Positions 4,726-16,586 of a stretch of 64,000 nucleotides of DNA are shown piece by piece. A program made the position numbers and the translations under genes. A model generated the notes under the pieces. The model was not told where the DNA came from. It worked only from the letters and a program-made list of their open reading frames with translations, and ran no database searches. This DNA is from Nitrospira sp. (lineage in GTDB: Bacteria; Nitrospirota; Nitrospiria; Nitrospirales; Nitrospiraceae): assembly GCA_030123565.1 (NCBI GenBank), contig CP126122.1, positions 755,001-819,000 on the forward strand, written 5' to 3'. Numbering within the stretch: position 1 is the stretch's first letter; each line of letters opens with the position of its first letter.

Positions 4726-4821
4726 GTCTCAAGATTATCCCATCTGGGCTTAGCCTTGGGGAGAAAACGCAGGCATTTTTGCCATTCGGCTCAGTTCTCG
4801 CGGGAAGGACGACTCATAGTC

Positions 4822-5020
4822 TCACCACCACCAAGTCAGCAAGAACCCACCAATGATCCAGTCGTACAAGGCGCAGAAGAGGATGTACCGATGCGGCGTC
4901 TGGACGTATGGGCCATGACGATGATGAATCAGATCCCAGAACCCATGAGCCAGGTAGCCTCAGGCGATCAAGAGCAGTTGAACTGAAAACGGTGTCAGGA
5001 ACAGTTTCGAGAAGTTAGGT
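4822..5020 (-). pseudogene. Remnant of a small membrane protein with an in-frame stop
   Basis: On the minus strand one frame reads LFLTPFSVQLLLIA, then TGA, then GYLAHGFWDLIHHRHGP and a hydrophobic segment ending in WWW-stop at 4822. The hydrophobic stretches and the His-rich AHGFWDLIHHR motif look like a decayed multi-spanning membrane protein. I cannot name the family with confidence. The single TGA near 4973 and the lack of a recognisable start suggest a pseudogene. Confidence 0.4.
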
Positions 5021-9527: not shown

Positions 9528-10023
9528 ACTGAGGTATTGCGGGTCAGGGTAGGAGGGTGGGATTCTCGGGCTGGGAGGTTGATCCCTGATAATAATTATT
9601 GCCGCATGGAATCATACTCTTACGGATGAGATGGATCTCCGGCACATTGACAGCATGCTCTGCGCTCTGTAGGGTAGAGACATGACGTACTAAGCCACGC
9701 CGGCTTTCCCCTTTCGCGCGCATTGTCCATCCTCTCCTGCGCGTGCGAGTCCCAAGTCTTCGCCGCTTCGACGCCACAAAACGACCGATCAGCGACGGCA
9801 GTCCTACAGTGACCGGTCAATCGATTTCCTCCAGACAGAGCCTTGTGCTCATGTAAGGTTCACAGGCCGCACGGCAAGGAGGCACAACAGGGATCAGCAG
9901 TTTTCGTTCCTCTGTTCGTCCCTCTGGTTGATGGCCTTTGCGTGGGGGCTATCATCTGGGTATCCGAAATCACACAATCACCTCAAGGGTCGGTCGGGCA
10001 AATGGGCTGATGAGAGAGAGGAT
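9528..10023. other. Intergenic stretch without a supportable gene
   Basis: No frame here shows a recognisable domain. A minus-strand frame from the ATG at about 9723 (59 residues, preceded by AGGAGAGG) is the best small candidate, but its product matches nothing I know. The last 100 bases lead into the small membrane protein gene. Confidence 0.4.
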
Positions 10024-10164
10024 ATGATGACGACGCAATCGGTTCTGTTCTGGGCCTCACACAATCTCTTCACCGCCGCCGCGATCTGCTTCGGTGGAGC
10101 GACGCTTGTGATCATGCTGTATACCTATATCCATGACCATGTGTTGCCGGCGAAGAGCCGTTAG
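10024..10164 (+). CDS. Small single-pass membrane protein
   Basis: This 46-residue protein begins MMTTQSVLFWASHNLFTAAA and has one strongly hydrophobic helix (about residues 14-37) followed by YIHDHVLPAKSR. The start at 10024 follows GAGAGAGAGG closely. A longer frame from 9928 exists but its extra part is not protein-like. The function is unknown. It opens a plus-strand run of small exported or membrane proteins leading to the HhH and MlaC genes. Confidence 0.5.
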   Translation: MMTTQSVLFWASHNLFTAAAICFGGATLVIMLYTYIHDHVLPAKSR

Positions 10165-10210
10165 CCTGCTGCATCTTGTGCCATGGTCGCTCATGATGGA
10201 GGTACGGTTC

Positions 10211-10498
10211 ATGCGCACTTATCGAATGATCGGCATAACTGGTTTCAGTCTCTTGCTTGCGGTGGGGGGATGGACCCTGCCGCCTCTGGCCGTCCATGCA
10301 GCGGACCAGAAACCTGCAGCGGTCGCGGTGCCGGCTCCGTCCGCTGCCGTCGCATCCGGCGCGGTTGAGGATACCCTGTCGATCTGTCTGGCGAGAATTC
10401 CACAGGGTGCGACTCCCGGACAACGGTTGATTGCCGAACAGAGCTGTCGGCGTGACGAGTCCGGCCGGGCCTCCATGCGGGCCGTTCCCGGACGATAG
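10211..10498 (+). CDS. Small exported protein of unknown function
   Basis: GGAGG lies 8 bases before the ATG at 10211. The 95-residue product has a signal peptide (MRTYRMIGITGFSLLLAVGG, cleavage probably after VHAA), then an alanine/proline-rich linker and a C-terminal part with two cysteines (SICLARIP and AEQSCRRD) that could form a disulfide in the periplasm. No family is recognised. Confidence 0.6.
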   Translation: MRTYRMIGITGFSLLLAVGGWTLPPLAVHAADQKPAAVAVPAPSAAVASGAVEDTLSICLARIPQGATPGQRLIAEQSCRRDESGRASMRAVPGR

Positions 10499-10598
10499 CC
10501 GGTCGGCAGTCGAATGAAGGTGGCGCGCGGTCTCCTTTCCTGAATCAAGCCGTTGAATCTATGAGCCAAGGTGCGGGGCAAGGCGGGAGGACCTCACA

Positions 10599-10895
10599 AT
10601 GCGAATGGAACATCGTGTTCGATCACGACAGATAAGCAGGTTCGGCGCGGCCGAGGAAGGGATGGTCAAAAGCGCCGGTGAGGCCCCATCGCGAGCCGGC
10701 CACGAACAGTTCACGGACATCAATACCGCCCCGGTCCCCCGGCTGAAATCACTGAGCGGCATCGGCGAGCACTATGCGAACAAGATCGTGGAGGGACGGC
10801 CCTATCGAAACAGGGAAGAATTGCTGACGAGACAGATTCTGCCGCAGTACATCTACGGCAGGATCATGGATCGGCTTGTGGCTGGTCAGTCATGA
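10599..10895 (+). CDS. Helix-hairpin-helix (ComEA-like) protein
   Basis: GGGAGG lies 8 bases before the start. The C-terminal 60 residues are a helix-hairpin-helix pair: DINTAPVPRLKSLSGIGEHY followed by ANKIVEGRPYRNREELLTR and a last helix, QYIYGRIMDRLV. This is the ComEA-type non-specific DNA-binding domain. Unlike ComEA there is no signal peptide or membrane anchor in the about 38-residue N-terminal part, so a cytoplasmic DNA-binding role is as likely as competence. The stop overlaps the start of the MlaC homologue by four bases (ATGA), implying co-translation. Confidence 0.75.
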   Translation: MRMEHRVRSRQISRFGAAEEGMVKSAGEAPSRAGHEQFTDINTAPVPRLKSLSGIGEHYANKIVEGRPYRNREELLTRQILPQYIYGRIMDRLVAGQS

Positions 10896-11518
10896 GGAAG
10901 GCGGGGCGGCGGGCGGCCTTGGTTGCGGCCATCTTTCTCATCAGCCTCCTGCCGGCCGCTGCAGCCTGGCCTGAGCAGGGACCGACCGGGGCCGTGAAGG
11001 CGACGGTCGGCGAATTACTTTCCATTCTCAAGGCATTCAAAGATCCCAGTCGTGCCGAGACGCGGCGTTGGGAGATCGAGCAGGTCATCCGACATCGTGT
11101 GCATTATGAAGAGATGGCCAAGCGGTCGCTCGGTGTTTCCTGGGCTCAATTGAACGACTCAGCGCGTCAGGAGTATGTCGGGCTTTTCGTGCAACTGCTT
11201 CGCGATGCCCTGGCCAACCGGATGGTCGAGTATTCCGGAGAACATATCATCTTCCTCTCGGAGCAACGTGAGGGAGGTTTCGCAGAGGTCAAGACGAGGT
11301 TGGTCGGAGACAAGGTCGATACCTTGATCGATTTCCGGCTGGTGAGTCAGGACGGAAGTTGGCTGGTGTACGACGCGGTGATGGATGGGGCCGGTCTTGT
11401 CGGAAACTACCATGCCCAGTTCACGAGGATCATCCGCGAAGCCTCCTGCGCGCGATTGATGGAGAGGATCAAAGAAAAGACGCTGATCGTGAAGTTATTT
11501 GAGAAGAGTGGTTCCTGA
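10892..11518 (+). CDS. MlaC-like phospholipid-binding periplasmic protein (copy 1)
   Basis: This 208-residue protein has a signal peptide (LVAAIFLISLLPAAAAW) and the MlaC/Ttg2D fold pattern: RRWEIEQVIRHRVHYEEMAK, QEYVGLFVQLLRDALANRM and a C-terminal LVGNYHAQFTRIIRE helix block. MlaC shuttles phospholipid between outer-membrane MlaA and the inner-membrane MlaFEDB complex. Here it is coupled to a HhH protein and not to other Mla genes; mlaEFD lies 45 kb downstream and a second MlaC is at 42210. The two copies share the same length and motif order but clearly differ in sequence. Confidence 0.8.
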   Translation: MRKAGRRAALVAAIFLISLLPAAAAWPEQGPTGAVKATVGELLSILKAFKDPSRAETRRWEIEQVIRHRVHYEEMAKRSLGVSWAQLNDSARQEYVGLFVQLLRDALANRMVEYSGEHIIFLSEQREGGFAEVKTRLVGDKVDTLIDFRLVSQDGSWLVYDAVMDGAGLVGNYHAQFTRIIREASCARLMERIKEKTLIVKLFEKSGS

Positions 11519-11619
11519 GATGAAGGGTGCGACGGCAAGACCGCGAATGGACGTGATGCGCGGGGCTCCTGGGAGGCACGTCCAGGTCACGGTTGGTTAT
11601 GGCTTATGGAGACAGATCA

Positions 11620-11808
11620 ATGAGATGTCCGCGCTGTTACGGTCCGATGACGATGATCAAGATGAAGGACATCGTGAGCGGAACGATCGCATATGGGTGG
11701 GGCTGTCGGCAATGTGGCGCGGTCATCGATTCTCTGATCGATGTTCATCGTCAATGGCATTTGGAGCCGCGGGCGACTTGGGCCCATTTGGCCGTCGCAG
11801 CCTGCTAG
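11620..11808 (+). CDS. Small zinc-ribbon protein
   Basis: This 62-residue protein starts MRCPRCYGPM, with a GGAG 9 bases upstream. Two CxxC knuckles, CPRC near the start and CRQC about 30 residues later (GWGCRQCGAVIDSLID), form a single zinc ribbon. The C-terminus is a short hydrophobic tail. Such proteins may bind nucleic acid or partner proteins; no specific role can be read. Confidence 0.6.
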   Translation: MRCPRCYGPMTMIKMKDIVSGTIAYGWGCRQCGAVIDSLIDVHRQWHLEPRATWAHLAVAAC

Positions 11809-11962
11809 GTGGGGTGCGGCCGCCTGTCTTTCGACTCTGGGAGAATCGGCCGGGAGGTGCTGGAGGGGGAGCTCAATGCGATCCGGCCGAACGAGGGGTG
11901 CAGGCCGGTGGAACGGCGGATCGAGTCGGTGGTCATCACGCCGGCCATGTTACGAGGCGGTC

Positions 11963-12400
11963 ATGAACGACCTATGCAACACAGCTCTGAGGCGAATTCC
12001 GACGGTCCTGCTGCTTGGGCTTGTGATCGGACTGGGTAGTCCAGCGTCCGGATGGGCTCAGCTTGTGGGGAAGGGGCAGTACGTCGAGGTGGCCAAGGGC
12101 ACCAAGCTCTGTTCGAACACCACGCTGGAACAGTCCAAAGGGGCTCTCGATCCCGGCAAGGTCTTTTGGAGAGTCAGCAGCCACGTGCGGGCGAACGGCA
12201 CCCAGACCGTTGCGGCATTCGTCCTTGAAACCATCTACGACCGCAAGAGCGGCGATACCAAGATTCGGGAGACCAGATACGACGAGGAGTACGCCACGTT
12301 TTTCAAGCGAGACCCCGAACGCAAGGGAATGTGGCTCATGATCAGCCCGGAGGACGGAAAAGTGGAAGCGATCGTGGAGATTTGTCCGAAGAAAAAATAG
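11963..12400 (+). CDS. Exported protein of unknown function
   Basis: This 145-residue product has a signal peptide (PTVLLLGLVIGLGSPASGWA) and a mature part rich in beta-strand pattern: GQYVEVAKGTKLCSN, FWRVSSHVRANGTQTVAAFV, ETIYDRKSGDTKIRETRYDE and VEAIVEICPKKK. Two cysteines (LCSN, EICP) may pair. GAGGCGG lies close before the ATG. No family is recognised. The repeated strand-turn layout suggests a small periplasmic beta domain. Confidence 0.6.
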   Translation: MNDLCNTALRRIPTVLLLGLVIGLGSPASGWAQLVGKGQYVEVAKGTKLCSNTTLEQSKGALDPGKVFWRVSSHVRANGTQTVAAFVLETIYDRKSGDTKIRETRYDEEYATFFKRDPERKGMWLMISPEDGKVEAIVEICPKKK

Positions 12401-12498
12401 AACCGTGCGGGTGTGCCATTGCCGGCAGCCGCCGGCCGTCGGCGGATCTCGACGAGGGGAATTCATTGTCAGACACAAAGAAAGCGAAGGGGTCCGCC

Positions 12499-12666
12499 AT
12501 GCTGAACGCTGCCCTGACAAGTCTTGCGCTTGGTCTGGTGGTCTGGGGCCTCAATTGGACCGAGCTGATCGAGATGCCGATGCAGTTTTATTGGCTCTTT
12601 ACGGGCGGCGGGATGTTGTTGATGCTGATTCATGTGACGACCAGGCGGCCGACCCGCGTATGGTGA
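12499..12666 (+). CDS. Small two-helix membrane protein
   Basis: This 55-residue protein contains two hydrophobic segments, ALTSLALGLVVWGLNW and FYWLFTGGGMLLMLIHV, separated by an acidic turn (TELIEMPMQ). AAGGGG lies 6 bases before the ATG. A TTG start at 12466 is also possible. The function is unknown. Confidence 0.5.
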   Translation: MLNAALTSLALGLVVWGLNWTELIEMPMQFYWLFTGGGMLLMLIHVTTRRPTRVW

Positions 12667-12751: not shown

Positions 12752-12964
12752 ATGATGTCTATGCCGGAACCACGCAAAGGTAACACATCTGGTCATGTGC
12801 GCAAGGCTACCGGCTTGCGGGGGACGAATACCGTCGACGGCCTGACCTGCAGTGAGGGGCAGGTGGAAGATCTTCTCTCGGAAGGGGAGTCCACCGAAGC
12901 GGAGCGGACGGTGTCGGTAAGGTCCTCCAAGCAGGCGGCGCGGAAGGTCCCTGCCCGTTCATAA
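12752..12964 (+). CDS. Small protein with an LTCxEGxVEDLLSEGES motif (paralogue A)
   Basis: This is a 70-residue hydrophilic protein. Its centre, DGLTCSEGQVEDLLSEGEST, is nearly repeated in the protein at 16345-16527 (DLTCHEGEVEDLLSEGEST); outside this motif the two differ. The N-terminus is basic and the C-terminus is rich in Lys and Arg. ATGs at 12752, 12755 and 12761 are all possible; AGAGATAGG precedes the first. Conservation of one short acidic motif between otherwise divergent small proteins argues that both are real genes. No known family is recognised. Confidence 0.55.
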   Translation: MMSMPEPRKGNTSGHVRKATGLRGTNTVDGLTCSEGQVEDLLSEGESTEAERTVSVRSSKQAARKVPARS

Positions 12965-13014
12965 CTTCATGTATCGTCGGTCAGATCATTGAACGAGCTG
13001 GGTCTCAATAGCGC

Positions 13015-13033
13015 TTGACTATGGGACCCATAG
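13015..13033 (+). promoter_or_regulatory. Candidate promoter with a perfect 15-base palindrome
   Basis: TTGACT at 13015-13020 is a good -35 box. Overlapping and following it is CTATGGG-A-CCCATAG (13019-13033), a perfect inverted repeat lying in the -35/-10 spacer, an ideal repressor site. A weak -10 (TAGCGT) follows about 17 bases after the -35. It lies 250 bases upstream of erpA and the ferredoxin oxidoreductase genes. Confidence 0.45.
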
Positions 13034-13282
13034 AGCTTAGCGTGGACAGAGGGCGTTTCTTGCTCCGCTGACGGTCCTGTCCCCTCGCGCTTCCTGATTC
13101 CTTCCCGCGCGACTGATTGTCCGGCTTCTGTTGCGTCCTACGCCGGATTGCCCTGTGCAGACCGATGACGGCCTCTCTGTGAACGGAGCGATTGTGGCTT
13201 ACGGAAGGGGAAAGCCGTCCCTAACAGCAATGTCATTGAAACAGTGGATTCGTTCTATACAACAGGAGAAGGGAGCAGCCTC

Positions 13283-13603
13283 ATGATTACCATCACCGCG
13301 ACGGCTGAAGAGAAGATTCGGGAGTTGATGCGGGAAGAAAAGGATACGCTCGGCTTGCGCGTGTATGTGAAGGGCGGCGGCTGCCATGGTTATCAGTACG
13401 GCATGGCCTTCGAGTCCAAGATGAGCGACGACGATACGGTGATTGAACAGGGTGAAGTGAAGGTGATCATGGATTCGCAAAGCGCCCCGCTGCTGAACGG
13501 CTGCGAAGTCGATTACGTGGACAGCGTGCAGGGATCCGGCTTCGCGATCAAGAACCCGCAAGCGAAGACGACCTGTGGGTGCGGCAGTTCATTCAGCGCC
13601 TAA
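13283..13603 (+). CDS. erpA: ErpA/IscA-type iron-sulfur carrier
   Basis: This 106-residue A-type carrier has the three cluster cysteines in standard places: C34 in KGGGCHGYQYG, then C98 and C100 in TTCGCGSS. AGGAG/GGGAG sequences precede the ATG at 13283. A-type carriers pass Fe-S clusters to apo-enzymes. Its position directly before two [4Fe-4S]-containing oxidoreductase subunits suggests it matures them. Co-transcription is plausible, with an 81-base gap to the next gene. It could equally be called IscA, since no discriminating residue was examined. Confidence 0.88.
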   Translation: MITITATAEEKIRELMREEKDTLGLRVYVKGGGCHGYQYGMAFESKMSDDDTVIEQGEVKVIMDSQSAPLLNGCEVDYVDSVQGSGFAIKNPQAKTTCGCGSSFSA

Positions 13604-13684
13604 CGCCATCGCGTGGTGGCCTCGGTTCCTCTTCGCATGCCGACCGGCAAGAGGAGGTCCGAGCCGCCGAGAGGAGAGATCGAC

Positions 13685-14581
13685 ATGAGTAAAGAGCGCA
13701 TCACCATTTCGCCCGATTTGTATGACATCATGCCGTCGGACTACCAGGATCTCGTCCGCAACGCCACCTACGGCAAAGAAGACCGAGGTTGGAAAGATAT
13801 CGGGACCTCGAAGGAACTCATCGAACAGCACTCGCTCTGTGCCGGGTGCCCAGAGTCCATGGCGTTTCGCTATATTTTGGCCTCGCTTCCCAATCCGGAA
13901 GACACGGTCATGGTCGGCTCGACCGGATGTACGAGTCTCGTGTTCCCGATGGTGGCCGTGCACAACATTCACTCGCTGTTCGGTAATCAAAACGCGATTG
14001 CTTCCGGATTGAAGCGAGCCCTCACTGTGCGATTCCCTGACCGAGTCAAGGACGTGGTGGTCTTAGCGGGCGACGGCGCGACGGTTGATATCGGCTTGGA
14101 TATGACGCTCCAGGCGTGGTTCCGGCAGGAAAAATTCACCACCATCTGCTTCGACAACGAACTCTATGCCAACACCGGCGGACAGGAGAGCGGCCTCATG
14201 CAGAAGGGTTTCGTGGCCAAAATGGCCCCAGTCGGTAAGCTCTTCGAGAAGGTGCGTCTCCCGGAGATCGCACGGGAGTCCGGCTGCCATTACGTTGTGA
14301 ACTGCACGGTCAGCAAGCCGTCGCTGGTCGAGAAGGTCGTCCGCAACGCGGTCCTGATCGCGCGGGAAATCGGACCGACCTATCTCCAGCTCTATACGCC
14401 CTGCATCCTGGAGATCGGCAAGAACAGCATGGAAGGTTTGCAGGAAATGCGGGATTCCGAGAAACCGTCCGAGCGGTTCGCCTACAAGGAATACATCAGC
14501 GAGCCGGCCAAGCAGCTTCTGGCCGAAGTCGCCGCCAAGGCCAGGGAAAAGAAAGCCGCCGCAAAGCAATTGGTTTCGTGA
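13685..14581 (+). CDS. 2-oxoacid:ferredoxin oxidoreductase, beta subunit (1)
   Basis: This 298-residue thiamine-diphosphate-binding beta subunit has four cluster cysteines: C52 and C55 (LCAGC), C82 (STGCTSL) and C240 (LYTPCILE). The TPP motif is AGDGATVDIG followed by NELYANTGGQ. Such subunits catalyse oxidative decarboxylation, or reductive carboxylation, of pyruvate or 2-oxoglutarate with ferredoxin and belong to the reverse TCA cycle when several subunits combine. The alpha, gamma and delta subunits are not in the window. GAGAGGAGAGATCGAC precedes the ATG. The C-terminus is an extra Lys/Ala-rich helix. The substrate cannot be assigned from sequence alone. Confidence 0.9.
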   Translation: MSKERITISPDLYDIMPSDYQDLVRNATYGKEDRGWKDIGTSKELIEQHSLCAGCPESMAFRYILASLPNPEDTVMVGSTGCTSLVFPMVAVHNIHSLFGNQNAIASGLKRALTVRFPDRVKDVVVLAGDGATVDIGLDMTLQAWFRQEKFTTICFDNELYANTGGQESGLMQKGFVAKMAPVGKLFEKVRLPEIARESGCHYVVNCTVSKPSLVEKVVRNAVLIAREIGPTYLQLYTPCILEIGKNSMEGLQEMRDSEKPSERFAYKEYISEPAKQLLAEVAAKAREKKAAAKQLVS

Positions 14582-14635
14582 GGGGCATCACTATCACCAC
14601 CGCACCTGCGGCTACGACAGAGAGCGAGGTTCCAG

Positions 14636-15526
14636 ATGAGTCTTGATTATGTGAAATTCACACCGGGATTTGAACAGTTCATGCCGAAAGAATATCGGGA
14701 TATGGTCGAGCACGGCCCGTTCGGGAAGAAAACGACGGTCTCGCAGATGGGCAGCTTCAAGGAAATCCTTGAGGAGCACCCCATGTGCGCCGGCTGCGCC
14801 ATGACTCTGTTCATCCGATTGGCGATCATCGCGTTCCCGAATCCCGAGGACACCATCACGGTCGGGACAGCGGGCTGCGGCAGGTTGGCGATTTCGCAAG
14901 CGGCGATTCCGTTCGTGTATGGGAATTATGGCGATCAGAACGGCGTTGCCAGCGGCTTATCGCGGGGTTTGCGGCTCCGGTTCGGCGACAAGCCCAAAGA
15001 TGTGGTGGTGATTGCAGGTGATGGCGGCACGGCCGACATCGGATTCCAGCAGGTCCTCCATTCCTGGTTCCGGAAGGAGCGGTTCACGACCATCATGTTG
15101 GACAACGAGGTCTACGGCAACACCGGCGGACAGGAAAGCGGGATGACGACGCGAGGTGCGGTGTTGAAGATGGCTCCGCTGGGAAAGAAATTCGAGAAGA
15201 TGGATATGGTTACGATGGCCAAGGTTGCCGGCTGTTCCTATATCGCCACGGTCGTGCCGAACAACCCGCGACGGGTGGAAAGCGTCATCAAGAAGGCGGT
15301 GCTGATCGCCCGAGACATAGGCCCTACCTATGTTCAAGCCTATACCTCGTGCAACATCGAATATGCGATCCCGACCGACAAGGTGATGGAAGACGCCAAG
15401 ACCGTGGAGGACGATCGTTATAAATTCACCGAGTATGTCAGCGACGAGGCGAAAGAGTACCTCGCAGAGCGGTACGGTTACAGGGAGTTCATGCCGAAGG
15501 CGCCGGCCGCAATCACGAAGGCATGA
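14636..15526 (+). CDS. 2-oxoacid:ferredoxin oxidoreductase, beta subunit (2)
   Basis: This 296-residue paralogue of the preceding gene is separated from it by 54 bases. Cluster cysteines are C51 and C54 (MCAGC), C81 (TAGCGRL) and C239 (AYTSCNIE); TPP binding is by AGDGGTADIG and NEVYGNTGGQ. Large parts align without gaps with subunit 1, so the pair arose by duplication, but they are clearly diverged. The two may serve different oxidoreductases (pyruvate and 2-oxoglutarate) or sit together in one complex. GAGCGAGG lies before the ATG. No alpha subunit follows. Confidence 0.9.
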   Translation: MSLDYVKFTPGFEQFMPKEYRDMVEHGPFGKKTTVSQMGSFKEILEEHPMCAGCAMTLFIRLAIIAFPNPEDTITVGTAGCGRLAISQAAIPFVYGNYGDQNGVASGLSRGLRLRFGDKPKDVVVIAGDGGTADIGFQQVLHSWFRKERFTTIMLDNEVYGNTGGQESGMTTRGAVLKMAPLGKKFEKMDMVTMAKVAGCSYIATVVPNNPRRVESVIKKAVLIARDIGPTYVQAYTSCNIEYAIPTDKVMEDAKTVEDDRYKFTEYVSDEAKEYLAERYGYREFMPKAPAAITKA

Positions 15527-15666
15527 ACGCAGAAGAGGATTGAACGGCGCGCCGAAAGAGAAATCGACGTGCGGCTCCTGCAGAATCTTGCCGGAGCAAA
15601 ATAAATAAGTCCGAGAGTCTTCACAATCTTGCGCCGGTTTTATCGGCATCTACAAAGGAGTCCAGG

Positions 15667-15909
15667 ATGACACAAGAACAGTTCCAACAGTTTTGGGCGC
15701 AGCTTCAGGCTCCCCTGAAGGCAAAATGGGAGAAAATCACCGATGCCGATGTGGGAGAGATCCAAGGCAATCTGACGACCTTCACCGACATTCTCCAGAA
15801 ACGTTATGGGGAATTGCACAAGGATGAAGTCAGTGTCTGGGCCGACCGCCGGCATGCCCATTGGAGCGGAAACTATATCGGGTACAAAGACCCTCAGCCG
15901 GCGTCCTGA
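15667..15909 (+). CDS. CsbD-like small stress protein
   Basis: This 80-residue protein has the CsbD/YjbJ pattern: APLKAKWEKITDADVGEIQG, followed by a helix ending LQKRYG and a Trp near the C-terminus. AAAGGAG lies 6 bases before the start. CsbD proteins are small helical stress-induced proteins of unknown mechanism. It lies behind the oxidoreductase beta subunits; the 140-base gap makes shared transcription possible but unproven. The C-terminal DRRHAHWSGNYIGYKDP extension is not typical of the family. Confidence 0.65.
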   Translation: MTQEQFQQFWAQLQAPLKAKWEKITDADVGEIQGNLTTFTDILQKRYGELHKDEVSVWADRRHAHWSGNYIGYKDPQPAS

Positions 15910-15912
15910 CCA

Positions 15913-15951
15913 GGCTCCGTCCCGAACGTTGATCCTCACAACCACGGAGCC
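15913..15951 (+). terminator. Weak hairpin after the CsbD-like gene
   Basis: GGCTCCGT (15913-15920) pairs with ACGGAGCC (15944-15951) across a 23-base loop. There is no T-run, so it may be only a processing or pause site. Confidence 0.3.
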
Positions 15952-15995
15952 GATCGCCCACGCCTTCTGAGAGCGACAGAAAGAGAGCACGTATC

Positions 15996-16340
15996 ATGCG
16001 AAAGATCGTCATCAACACAAGTTATGATCGGTTCTGCCTGAGCCACAAGGCCTTCCTGCGTCTACGAGAGTTGGGACAACCGGAAGCGCTCCAGGAGACA
16101 GACATGGGGGCCTACTGGCCCTCCGCGTCGGGCGCCAGGGAACCGAGACTCAATCAATGCGGGGCGCTGATTCCCCGTGACGACAAAAGGCTGGTGCAGG
16201 TAGTGGAAGAGTTGCGTGCGGAGGCCAATGGGCATTGTGCAGAACTCAAGGTGGTCGCGATTCCGGATGACGTGCCATGGGTCATCGCCAAAACGGATGG
16301 CAGCGAACATGTGAGCGAACAACACCGCACCTGGAGCTGA
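15996..16340 (+). CDS. Conserved protein of unknown function with C-terminal HRTW motif
   Basis: This 114-residue protein has the plan RKIVINTSYDRFCLSHKAF at the start, then IPRDDKRLVQVVEELR, ANGHCAELKVVAIPDDVPW and a final EHVSEQHRTWS. I recall the same plan (an N-terminal VVNT block, a central PRDDPxLVQVVEELG block and the IPDDVxW...DGxEHVxExHRTW end) in uncharacterised proteins of many bacteria and some phages, but no function is known to me. It is followed after four bases by the small motif protein, so the two are likely co-transcribed. Confidence 0.6.
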   Translation: MRKIVINTSYDRFCLSHKAFLRLRELGQPEALQETDMGAYWPSASGAREPRLNQCGALIPRDDKRLVQVVEELRAEANGHCAELKVVAIPDDVPWVIAKTDGSEHVSEQHRTWS

Positions 16341-16344
16341 CTCG

Positions 16345-16527
16345 ATGCGACGGAATGAGACGGTCCCTACGATGACAGGTTTGGACGGAAGCCACGCACC
16401 GGAGACGGTTGACCGGCGCAGAATTTCTTCCCGCCGGCGACTCTCGAAGCCCAAGTTGAGCGATCTGACGTGTCATGAAGGGGAGGTTGAAGACCTCCTC
16501 TCGGAAGGAGAATCCACCTCGACGTAA
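16345..16527 (+). CDS. Small protein with an LTCxEGxVEDLLSEGES motif (paralogue B)
   Basis: This is a 60-residue protein whose C-terminal third, DLTCHEGEVEDLLSEGEST, repeats the motif of the protein at 12752-12964. Here the motif is at the very C-terminus with only three residues after it. The N-terminal 38 residues are basic and serine-rich. GGAG lies 9 bases before the ATG. Together the two paralogues bracket the ErpA/oxidoreductase/CsbD block. The function is unknown. Confidence 0.55.
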   Translation: MRRNETVPTMTGLDGSHAPETVDRRRISSRRRLSKPKLSDLTCHEGEVEDLLSEGESTST

Positions 16528-16548: not shown

Positions 16549-16586
16549 GAGCAGGGTCTCTCTTCCTCACGATGGCGACCCTGCTC
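16549..16586. terminator. Inverted repeat between convergent genes
   Basis: GAGCAGGGTC (16549-16558) and GACCCTGCTC (16577-16586) are perfect inverted arms around an 18-base loop, located between the convergent ends at 16527 and 16693. A bidirectional terminator is likely, although it lacks a T-run. Confidence 0.5.

Follow-up and report, generated by a model that had tools for sequence, protein, structure and literature searches.

CP12, FlgM and NepR are disordered peptides with a regulatory role and a single conserved helix, and they offer, as a concept and with no claim of sequence similarity, one parallel for the protein family described here: a short conserved binding stretch within a variable, disordered chain. 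A second parallel is provided by the CsbD/YjbJ-type and hydrophilin stress proteins of the sigma-S regulon (YciG, YmdF and YjbJ), which are also small, hydrophilic and encoded together with stress genes; the CsbD-like YjbJ is under sigma-S control in Salmonella (PMC5437024). Here we report on two small proteins, orf70 and orf60, encoded within a 64,000-nucleotide window of a Nitrospira sp. genome (contig CP126122.1, positions 755,001 to 819,000), which carry a common motif and belong to a family whose genes usually share an operon with a CsbD-like gene. Unlike CsbD or KGG proteins, to which they have no sequence relation, the members of this family possess one strictly conserved, Cys-bearing core. 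The hydrophilin criteria are a glycine content above 6% and a hydrophilicity index above 1; the values are 6.7% and 1.03 for orf60 and 10.4% and 0.91 for orf70, with 24 of 62 family members exceeding both thresholds. The family itself is undescribed, although small proteins of this kind, hydrophilic members of a stress regulon that conserve one short segment, are already known.

The gene for orf70 (12761..12964, forward strand) is the last of the upstream operon and carries its 18-residue core, LTCSEGQVEDLLSEGEST (12842..12895, forward strand), internally. Of its two ATG codons, at 12752 (70 aa) and 12761 (67 aa), the latter is the more likely start, because the distance from ATG to core is ~25 codons in most genera and because a Shine-Dalgarno-like AGGA precedes the ATG at 12761. 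The 60-aa orf60 (16345..16527, forward strand) has its core, LTCHEGEVEDLLSEGEST (16465..16518, forward strand), near the C-terminus; it begins 4 nt past the stop codon of the gene for p114, with GGAG upstream, and has orthologues in two further genomes (G017 and G015). The two cores, LTC[S/H]EG[Q/E]VEDLLSEGEST, agree at 16 of their 18 residues while the tails are dissimilar, and they are the only copies of the motif in the 4.62-Mb genome of the window (G000). A preliminary description of this DNA had correctly located both small ORFs and their common motif. Its account of the block that they flank named the ErpA, OFOR and CsbD-like genes but omitted p114 (15996..16340, forward strand), a 114-aa protein of unknown function in the PHROG 16527 family, whose gene comes after the CsbD-like gene and directly before orf60. 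Past orf60, the inverted repeat GAGCAGGGTC...GACCCTGCTC (16549..16586, forward strand), recognised by eye and uncalled by a consensus scan, is a possible terminator.

Of 175 Nitrospiraceae genomes, 58 gave strong matches to a 21-column profile of the core, and within a 395-genome sample of the phylum convincing matches were confined to this family. A scan with the core pattern, which is narrow, across 84,980 GTDB genomes returned Nitrospira records only, and profile searches of phages, plasmids and IMG/VR gave no strong match; an origin from a mobile element, phage or plasmid was rejected. Low-scoring 'SISDLLSEGEST' matches in L138-L144 were rejected as homologues, being a different stretch that is conserved at the DNA level. 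Chance similarity between orf70 and orf60 is ruled out by conservation across the whole family, and on this sequence evidence the two are paralogues within a Nitrospiraceae-restricted family with no convincing member elsewhere. Its members are hydrophilic proteins of 52-89 residues with variable tails, a single Cys (56/62 members) and, in 50 of the 62, no aromatic residue. Their core follows the logo [DEG]-L-T-C-x-E-[SGA]-[QE]-[IVLM]-E-[DE]-[LIV]-[LF]-[SA]-[EKQ]-G-E-[ST]-[TS], in which T, C, E, G and E are invariant, and is set in one of two architectures: at the C-terminus, as in orf60, or ~25 residues from the start and followed by a charged tail, as in orf70. The earlier statement that no described family contains the motif held up, with no match above cut-off in Pfam, NCBIfam, PHROGs or the PDB (best chance matches E 0.01-0.3). 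Literature searches on Nitrospira CsbD, small proteins, start sites and regulons returned nothing on these genes, and the papers found by targeted searches mention neither the motif protein family nor its upstream element.

That conservation is limited to this stretch, as had been proposed, is borne out by dN/dS values of about 0.04-0.1 in the core and about 0.4-0.8 in the flanks, a comparison that leaves out the pooled pN/pS of genus g17, whose rows are out of alignment register. Between orthologues the core has a dN of 0 to 0.06 and a dS of 0.4 to 0.6, with 4-5.5 synonymous versus 0-2.5 non-synonymous changes per pair; ~8 synonymous and 3 non-synonymous changes separate the core of orf70 from that of orf60. 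The 67-aa orthologue of orf70 in G017 has an overall dS of 0.46 and dN of 0.19, with a core dN of 0. Core dN far below dS, combined with higher dN/dS in the flanks, points to selection on the peptide; as judged from these codon comparisons, the core is under selection at the protein level. The limitation of conservation to this one stretch is consistent with a binding segment. In homologues from other genera, third-position variation runs along the entire motif, and a motif acting in DNA or RNA rather than in protein is ruled out by the codon pattern.

The AlphaFold2 model of orf60 has no secondary structure and is mostly unstructured (mean pLDDT 58.6, with a peak of 71 around the core); confidence was too poor for a fold search with either this model or that of p114 (pLDDT 40.6). 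The core shares the spacing LTxxExxVxxLLxxGxS with the first helix of the LuxR/GerE helix-turn-helix (for example LTEREITVLRLVADGKTNKEIA in G000). This positional likeness, together with the constant company of the upstream element discussed below, raises the idea that the core mimics helix 1 of a LuxR/GerE or sigma region 4 domain, tuning the factor that reads the element in an autoregulatory loop. Unlike LuxR/GerE proteins, however, the motif protein has no helix-turn-helix continuation: the following helix is missing, two core positions are acidic, and 24 members searched at E values up to 10 gave no match to PF00196 (GerE) or any other Pfam helix-turn-helix. Furthermore, an N-capped helix by itself might yield the same pattern. 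We consider such mimicry improbable and treat the likeness to GerE helix 1 as a lead only.

Seven genes on the forward strand (10024..12666) separate the first copy of the upstream element, copy A, from orf70, encoding in order a 46-aa membrane protein (10024-10164), a 95-aa protein (10211-10498), an HHH_3 protein (10599-10895), an MlaC-like protein (10892-11518), a Cys-rich zinc-ribbon-like protein (11620-11808), a 145-aa secreted protein (11963-12400) and a 55-aa membrane protein (12499-12666). Between orf70 and p114, on the same strand, are genes for an ErpA-like iron-sulphur insertion protein (13283..13603; NF010147, 131.9 bits against a cut-off of 117), OFOR beta subunit 1 (13685..14581), OFOR beta subunit 2 (14636..15526) and an 80-aa CsbD/YjbJ-like protein of the stress family (15667..15909; weak match to NCBIfam NF007748).

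The preliminary description suggested a link to the oxidoreductase, with the motif as a short peptide that possibly binds OFOR or its ferredoxin and is encoded beside its target. OFOR beta genes are indeed neighbours of the motif gene in G000, G015, G017, G077, G051 and G049, and element-led ErpA operons of relatives also hold OFOR alpha, which would place OFOR and the motif protein in one regulon. Across genera, however, this neighbourhood is limited to the window's genus (g1), G077, G049 and G051; in most genera the motif gene lies far from OFOR, so that a general linkage is rejected, and the survey of neighbours did not find the consistent placement inside OFOR operons that would mark an accessory subunit. 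The OFOR genes of the window are themselves two beta subunits without an alpha, extra copies of betas that are sited beside alpha genes elsewhere; beta 1 is 95% identical to G000:C1:98117-99007, and that copy adjoins an alpha gene at 99500. G000 has only two OFOR alpha loci, neither of them beside a motif gene because both motif copies sit in the window. In addition, G012 and G023 retain intact OFOR betas although the frame of their motif gene is lost, and the recurrent neighbours in other genomes are CsbD, p114 and a methyltransferase, with the upstream element as the most general association of all. The proposed link was thus not sustained: OFOR, a carbon-fixation enzyme, is unlikely to be the general partner of the motif protein, and we give a binding peptide for OFOR or ferredoxin only a slim chance.

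Most loci of g1 and of two other genera, g14 and g15, share an order on one strand of CsbD (-0.7 kb), p114 (-0.3 kb) and the motif gene. CsbD is the first gene of a CsbD-p114-motif cassette in relatives, and p114 is directly upstream of most orf60 orthologues in three genera. With its presence in 58 genomes of the Nitrospiraceae and this recurrent placement, the motif is neither absent from relatives nor scattered at random, which favours a real family. The motif protein might have no function other than that of a subunit or modulator of p114, as would suit its position directly 3' of p114 in most of these loci, the 4 nt spacing in the window and the fact that 51 of the 58 genomes with the motif also have p114 (101 of 175 overall, a co-occurrence whose P value is inflated because the genomes are related). 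Yet 50 genomes keep p114 without the motif, and in g17 the motif gene lies apart from CsbD-p114, although it and p114 each stand behind an element. So exclusive a role is unlikely in our view, and since the genes are separate in g17 and p114 often occurs without the motif, p114 alone would be insufficient as a partner.

In several relatives the motif gene has decayed. A frameshifted or stop-containing remnant follows p114 in G001, G011, G012 and G023, G025 and G008 have comparable remnants, and the gene is wholly missing from other members of the genus, while p114 and CsbD are retained. Decay of this one gene beside intact neighbours implies that the motif protein is not essential there, and it is evidently dispensable in these relatives.

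A SAM methyltransferase gene is situated ~0.7 kb downstream of the motif gene in g15 and g17. With the small size and single Cys of the motif protein, this would suit a RiPP-like precursor of a modified peptide, the neighbouring methyltransferase being the modifier. However, the conserved part sits in the middle, between variable tails, which is not the layout of a leader and core peptide. Most g1 loci have no methyltransferase, and neither a YcaO nor a radical SAM or lanthionine enzyme was noticed next to the motif gene; we regard a RiPP-like precursor as extremely unlikely.

The upstream element is a conserved promoter-like sequence of ~45 nt, with the consensus GCGCGTCTGATTCYCCRGTCTCCGCCGCTTCTACGCCAG, obtained by aligning the DNA upstream of CsbD. 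Copy A (9730..9777, forward strand) leads the small-protein/MlaC operon ending in orf70, and copy B (13097..13153, forward strand), upstream of ErpA, leads the run ErpA-OFORb1-OFORb2-CsbD-p114-orf60. A sequence-only model (R1) identified five strong copies in the 4.6 Mb of G000, the next match having an E value of 0.39, and two of these five head the operons that end in orf70 and orf60. Elsewhere the element, in the orientation of the gene, precedes CsbD by 80-96 nt in 36 of 39 cases and ErpA by 122-130 nt, the position that a promoter or 5' leader would be expected to have. For 52 of 63 motif genes an element occurs within 1.6 kb upstream on the same strand, compared with 15% of random positions in the same loci, a figure with some circularity, as the loci that went into the model had been retrieved for the motif; for seven of the 63 no element was found upstream on the same strand. 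Whole-genome scans, which are free of this circularity, detected 0-6 copies in each of ten genomes and placed the motif gene behind a copy in G015, G048, G070, G121, G139 and G158. The element is present in 58 of 58 motif genomes versus 70 of 114 others, with P values that are overstated because the genomes are related.

Although a hairpin can be drawn for the element (96% of cells paired), it shows no double-sided changes and does not exceed shuffled sequences. A structured RNA was rejected, there being no compensatory changes and no match found in Rfam, and a DNA site offers the simpler explanation. The CsbD gene of the window lacks an element of its own and starts 140 nt after OFOR beta 2; the run from ErpA to orf60 may therefore be a single transcript starting at 13097.

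The company kept by the element resembles a stress regulon. In G000 one copy precedes genes for a BON-domain (OsmY-like) protein, a DUF2934 protein and an Hsp20-like protein, two lead gene runs for small proteins of membrane and Cys-rich type, and the remaining two lead the MlaC/HHH_3 run that closes with orf70 and the ErpA-OFOR-CsbD-p114-orf60 run. In other genomes the genes behind the element include CsbD-DUF2934-Hsp20, CsbD-BON-DUF2934, ErpA with OFOR alpha, and a fatty-acid desaturase. From this gene content we infer that the genes behind the element are those of a general stress response.

The explanation that we favour, with a little better than even confidence in the whole, is that the motif proteins form a Nitrospiraceae-restricted small-protein family of a stress-type regulon and that their core is a capped helix. 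The element would be a promoter or operator of the general stress response, so that the motif protein would be made together with CsbD under stress. The protein itself would be largely disordered, its core folding as one short helix on docking to a putative partner, capped by T at the N-terminal end and by Gly at the C-terminal end, with E three residues after the T and an I/V..LL face; the near-invariant Cys at the start of the helix could serve as a contact or as a thiol switch. Likelier candidate partners than the neighbouring OFOR are other products of this regulon, with p114 foremost, or a component of the general stress response. A more ambitious proposal unites small protein and element in one Nitrospiraceae-specific stress circuit, in which a sigma factor or activator would read the element and the last-encoded, Cys-bearing helix peptide would feed back as a redox-sensitive switch; this we think very improbable.

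Nitrospira are major nitrite oxidisers, including the comammox bacteria, for which few genetic tools exist, and we found no described general stress regulon for Nitrospira in the literature searched. Genes of the family described here typically close stress-type operons, and the element offers a tangible way into the regulon, to the genes that respond together and probably to their regulator. The small protein would belong to those products of the stress response that other bacteria give no way of guessing.

Two OFOR beta subunits (13685-14581 and 14636-15526) lie in the window as extra copies in tandem (13685-15526), together with an ErpA-like gene (13283-13603) and without an alpha subunit. 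The first of them shares 95% identity with the copy that adjoins an OFOR alpha gene elsewhere in the genome (C1:98-100 kb). OFOR alpha seems to have been lost from the window locus, since the Nitrospiraceae genome G015 carries ErpA followed by OFOR alpha at the equivalent place. We also observed that, in genome G001, an IS21-like IstA/IstB pair interrupts OFOR beta 1 (locus L147, 1720-4862).

Decayed remnants of the orf60 gene, which encodes the smaller of the two motif proteins (16345-16527), were found 3′ of the gene for the 114-residue protein p114 (15996-16340 in the window) in several genus-mates (L147, L148, L149, L145, L184 and L189). Genus g17 has a second, divergent subfamily of motif proteins (L130, L131 and L134, from G141, G149 and G139, respectively) with a C-terminal YLTCNEGELEVLMSKGEST, in which neither CsbD nor p114 adjoins the motif gene. 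Separately, loci L138-L144 contain a ∼45-nt stretch, GATCCGGTGGACCGAGGTCTTCCATCAGCGACCTCCTCTCTGAGGGTGAGAGCAC, that is near-identical across several genomes (for example, L140 at about 4790-4830) and has no entry in Rfam; considered as a relative of the motif, it proved unrelated, resembling it in one frame.

Rfam likewise holds no entry for the conserved, ∼45-nt promoter-like element found at 9730-9777 and 13097-13153 in the window and at positions 3177370, 483943 and 458158 of contig C1; in this genome its copies stand at the head of five operons that encode stress-type proteins and small proteins. Several small Cys-rich, zinc-ribbon-like proteins recur behind copies of the element (window 11620-11808; L203 and L204, downstream of it), with starts such as MRCPRCYG..., MHCSRCDGL... 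and MHCRRCDGL.... Genomes that carry the element, 128 of the 172 from Nitrospiraceae, have between one and eight copies each.
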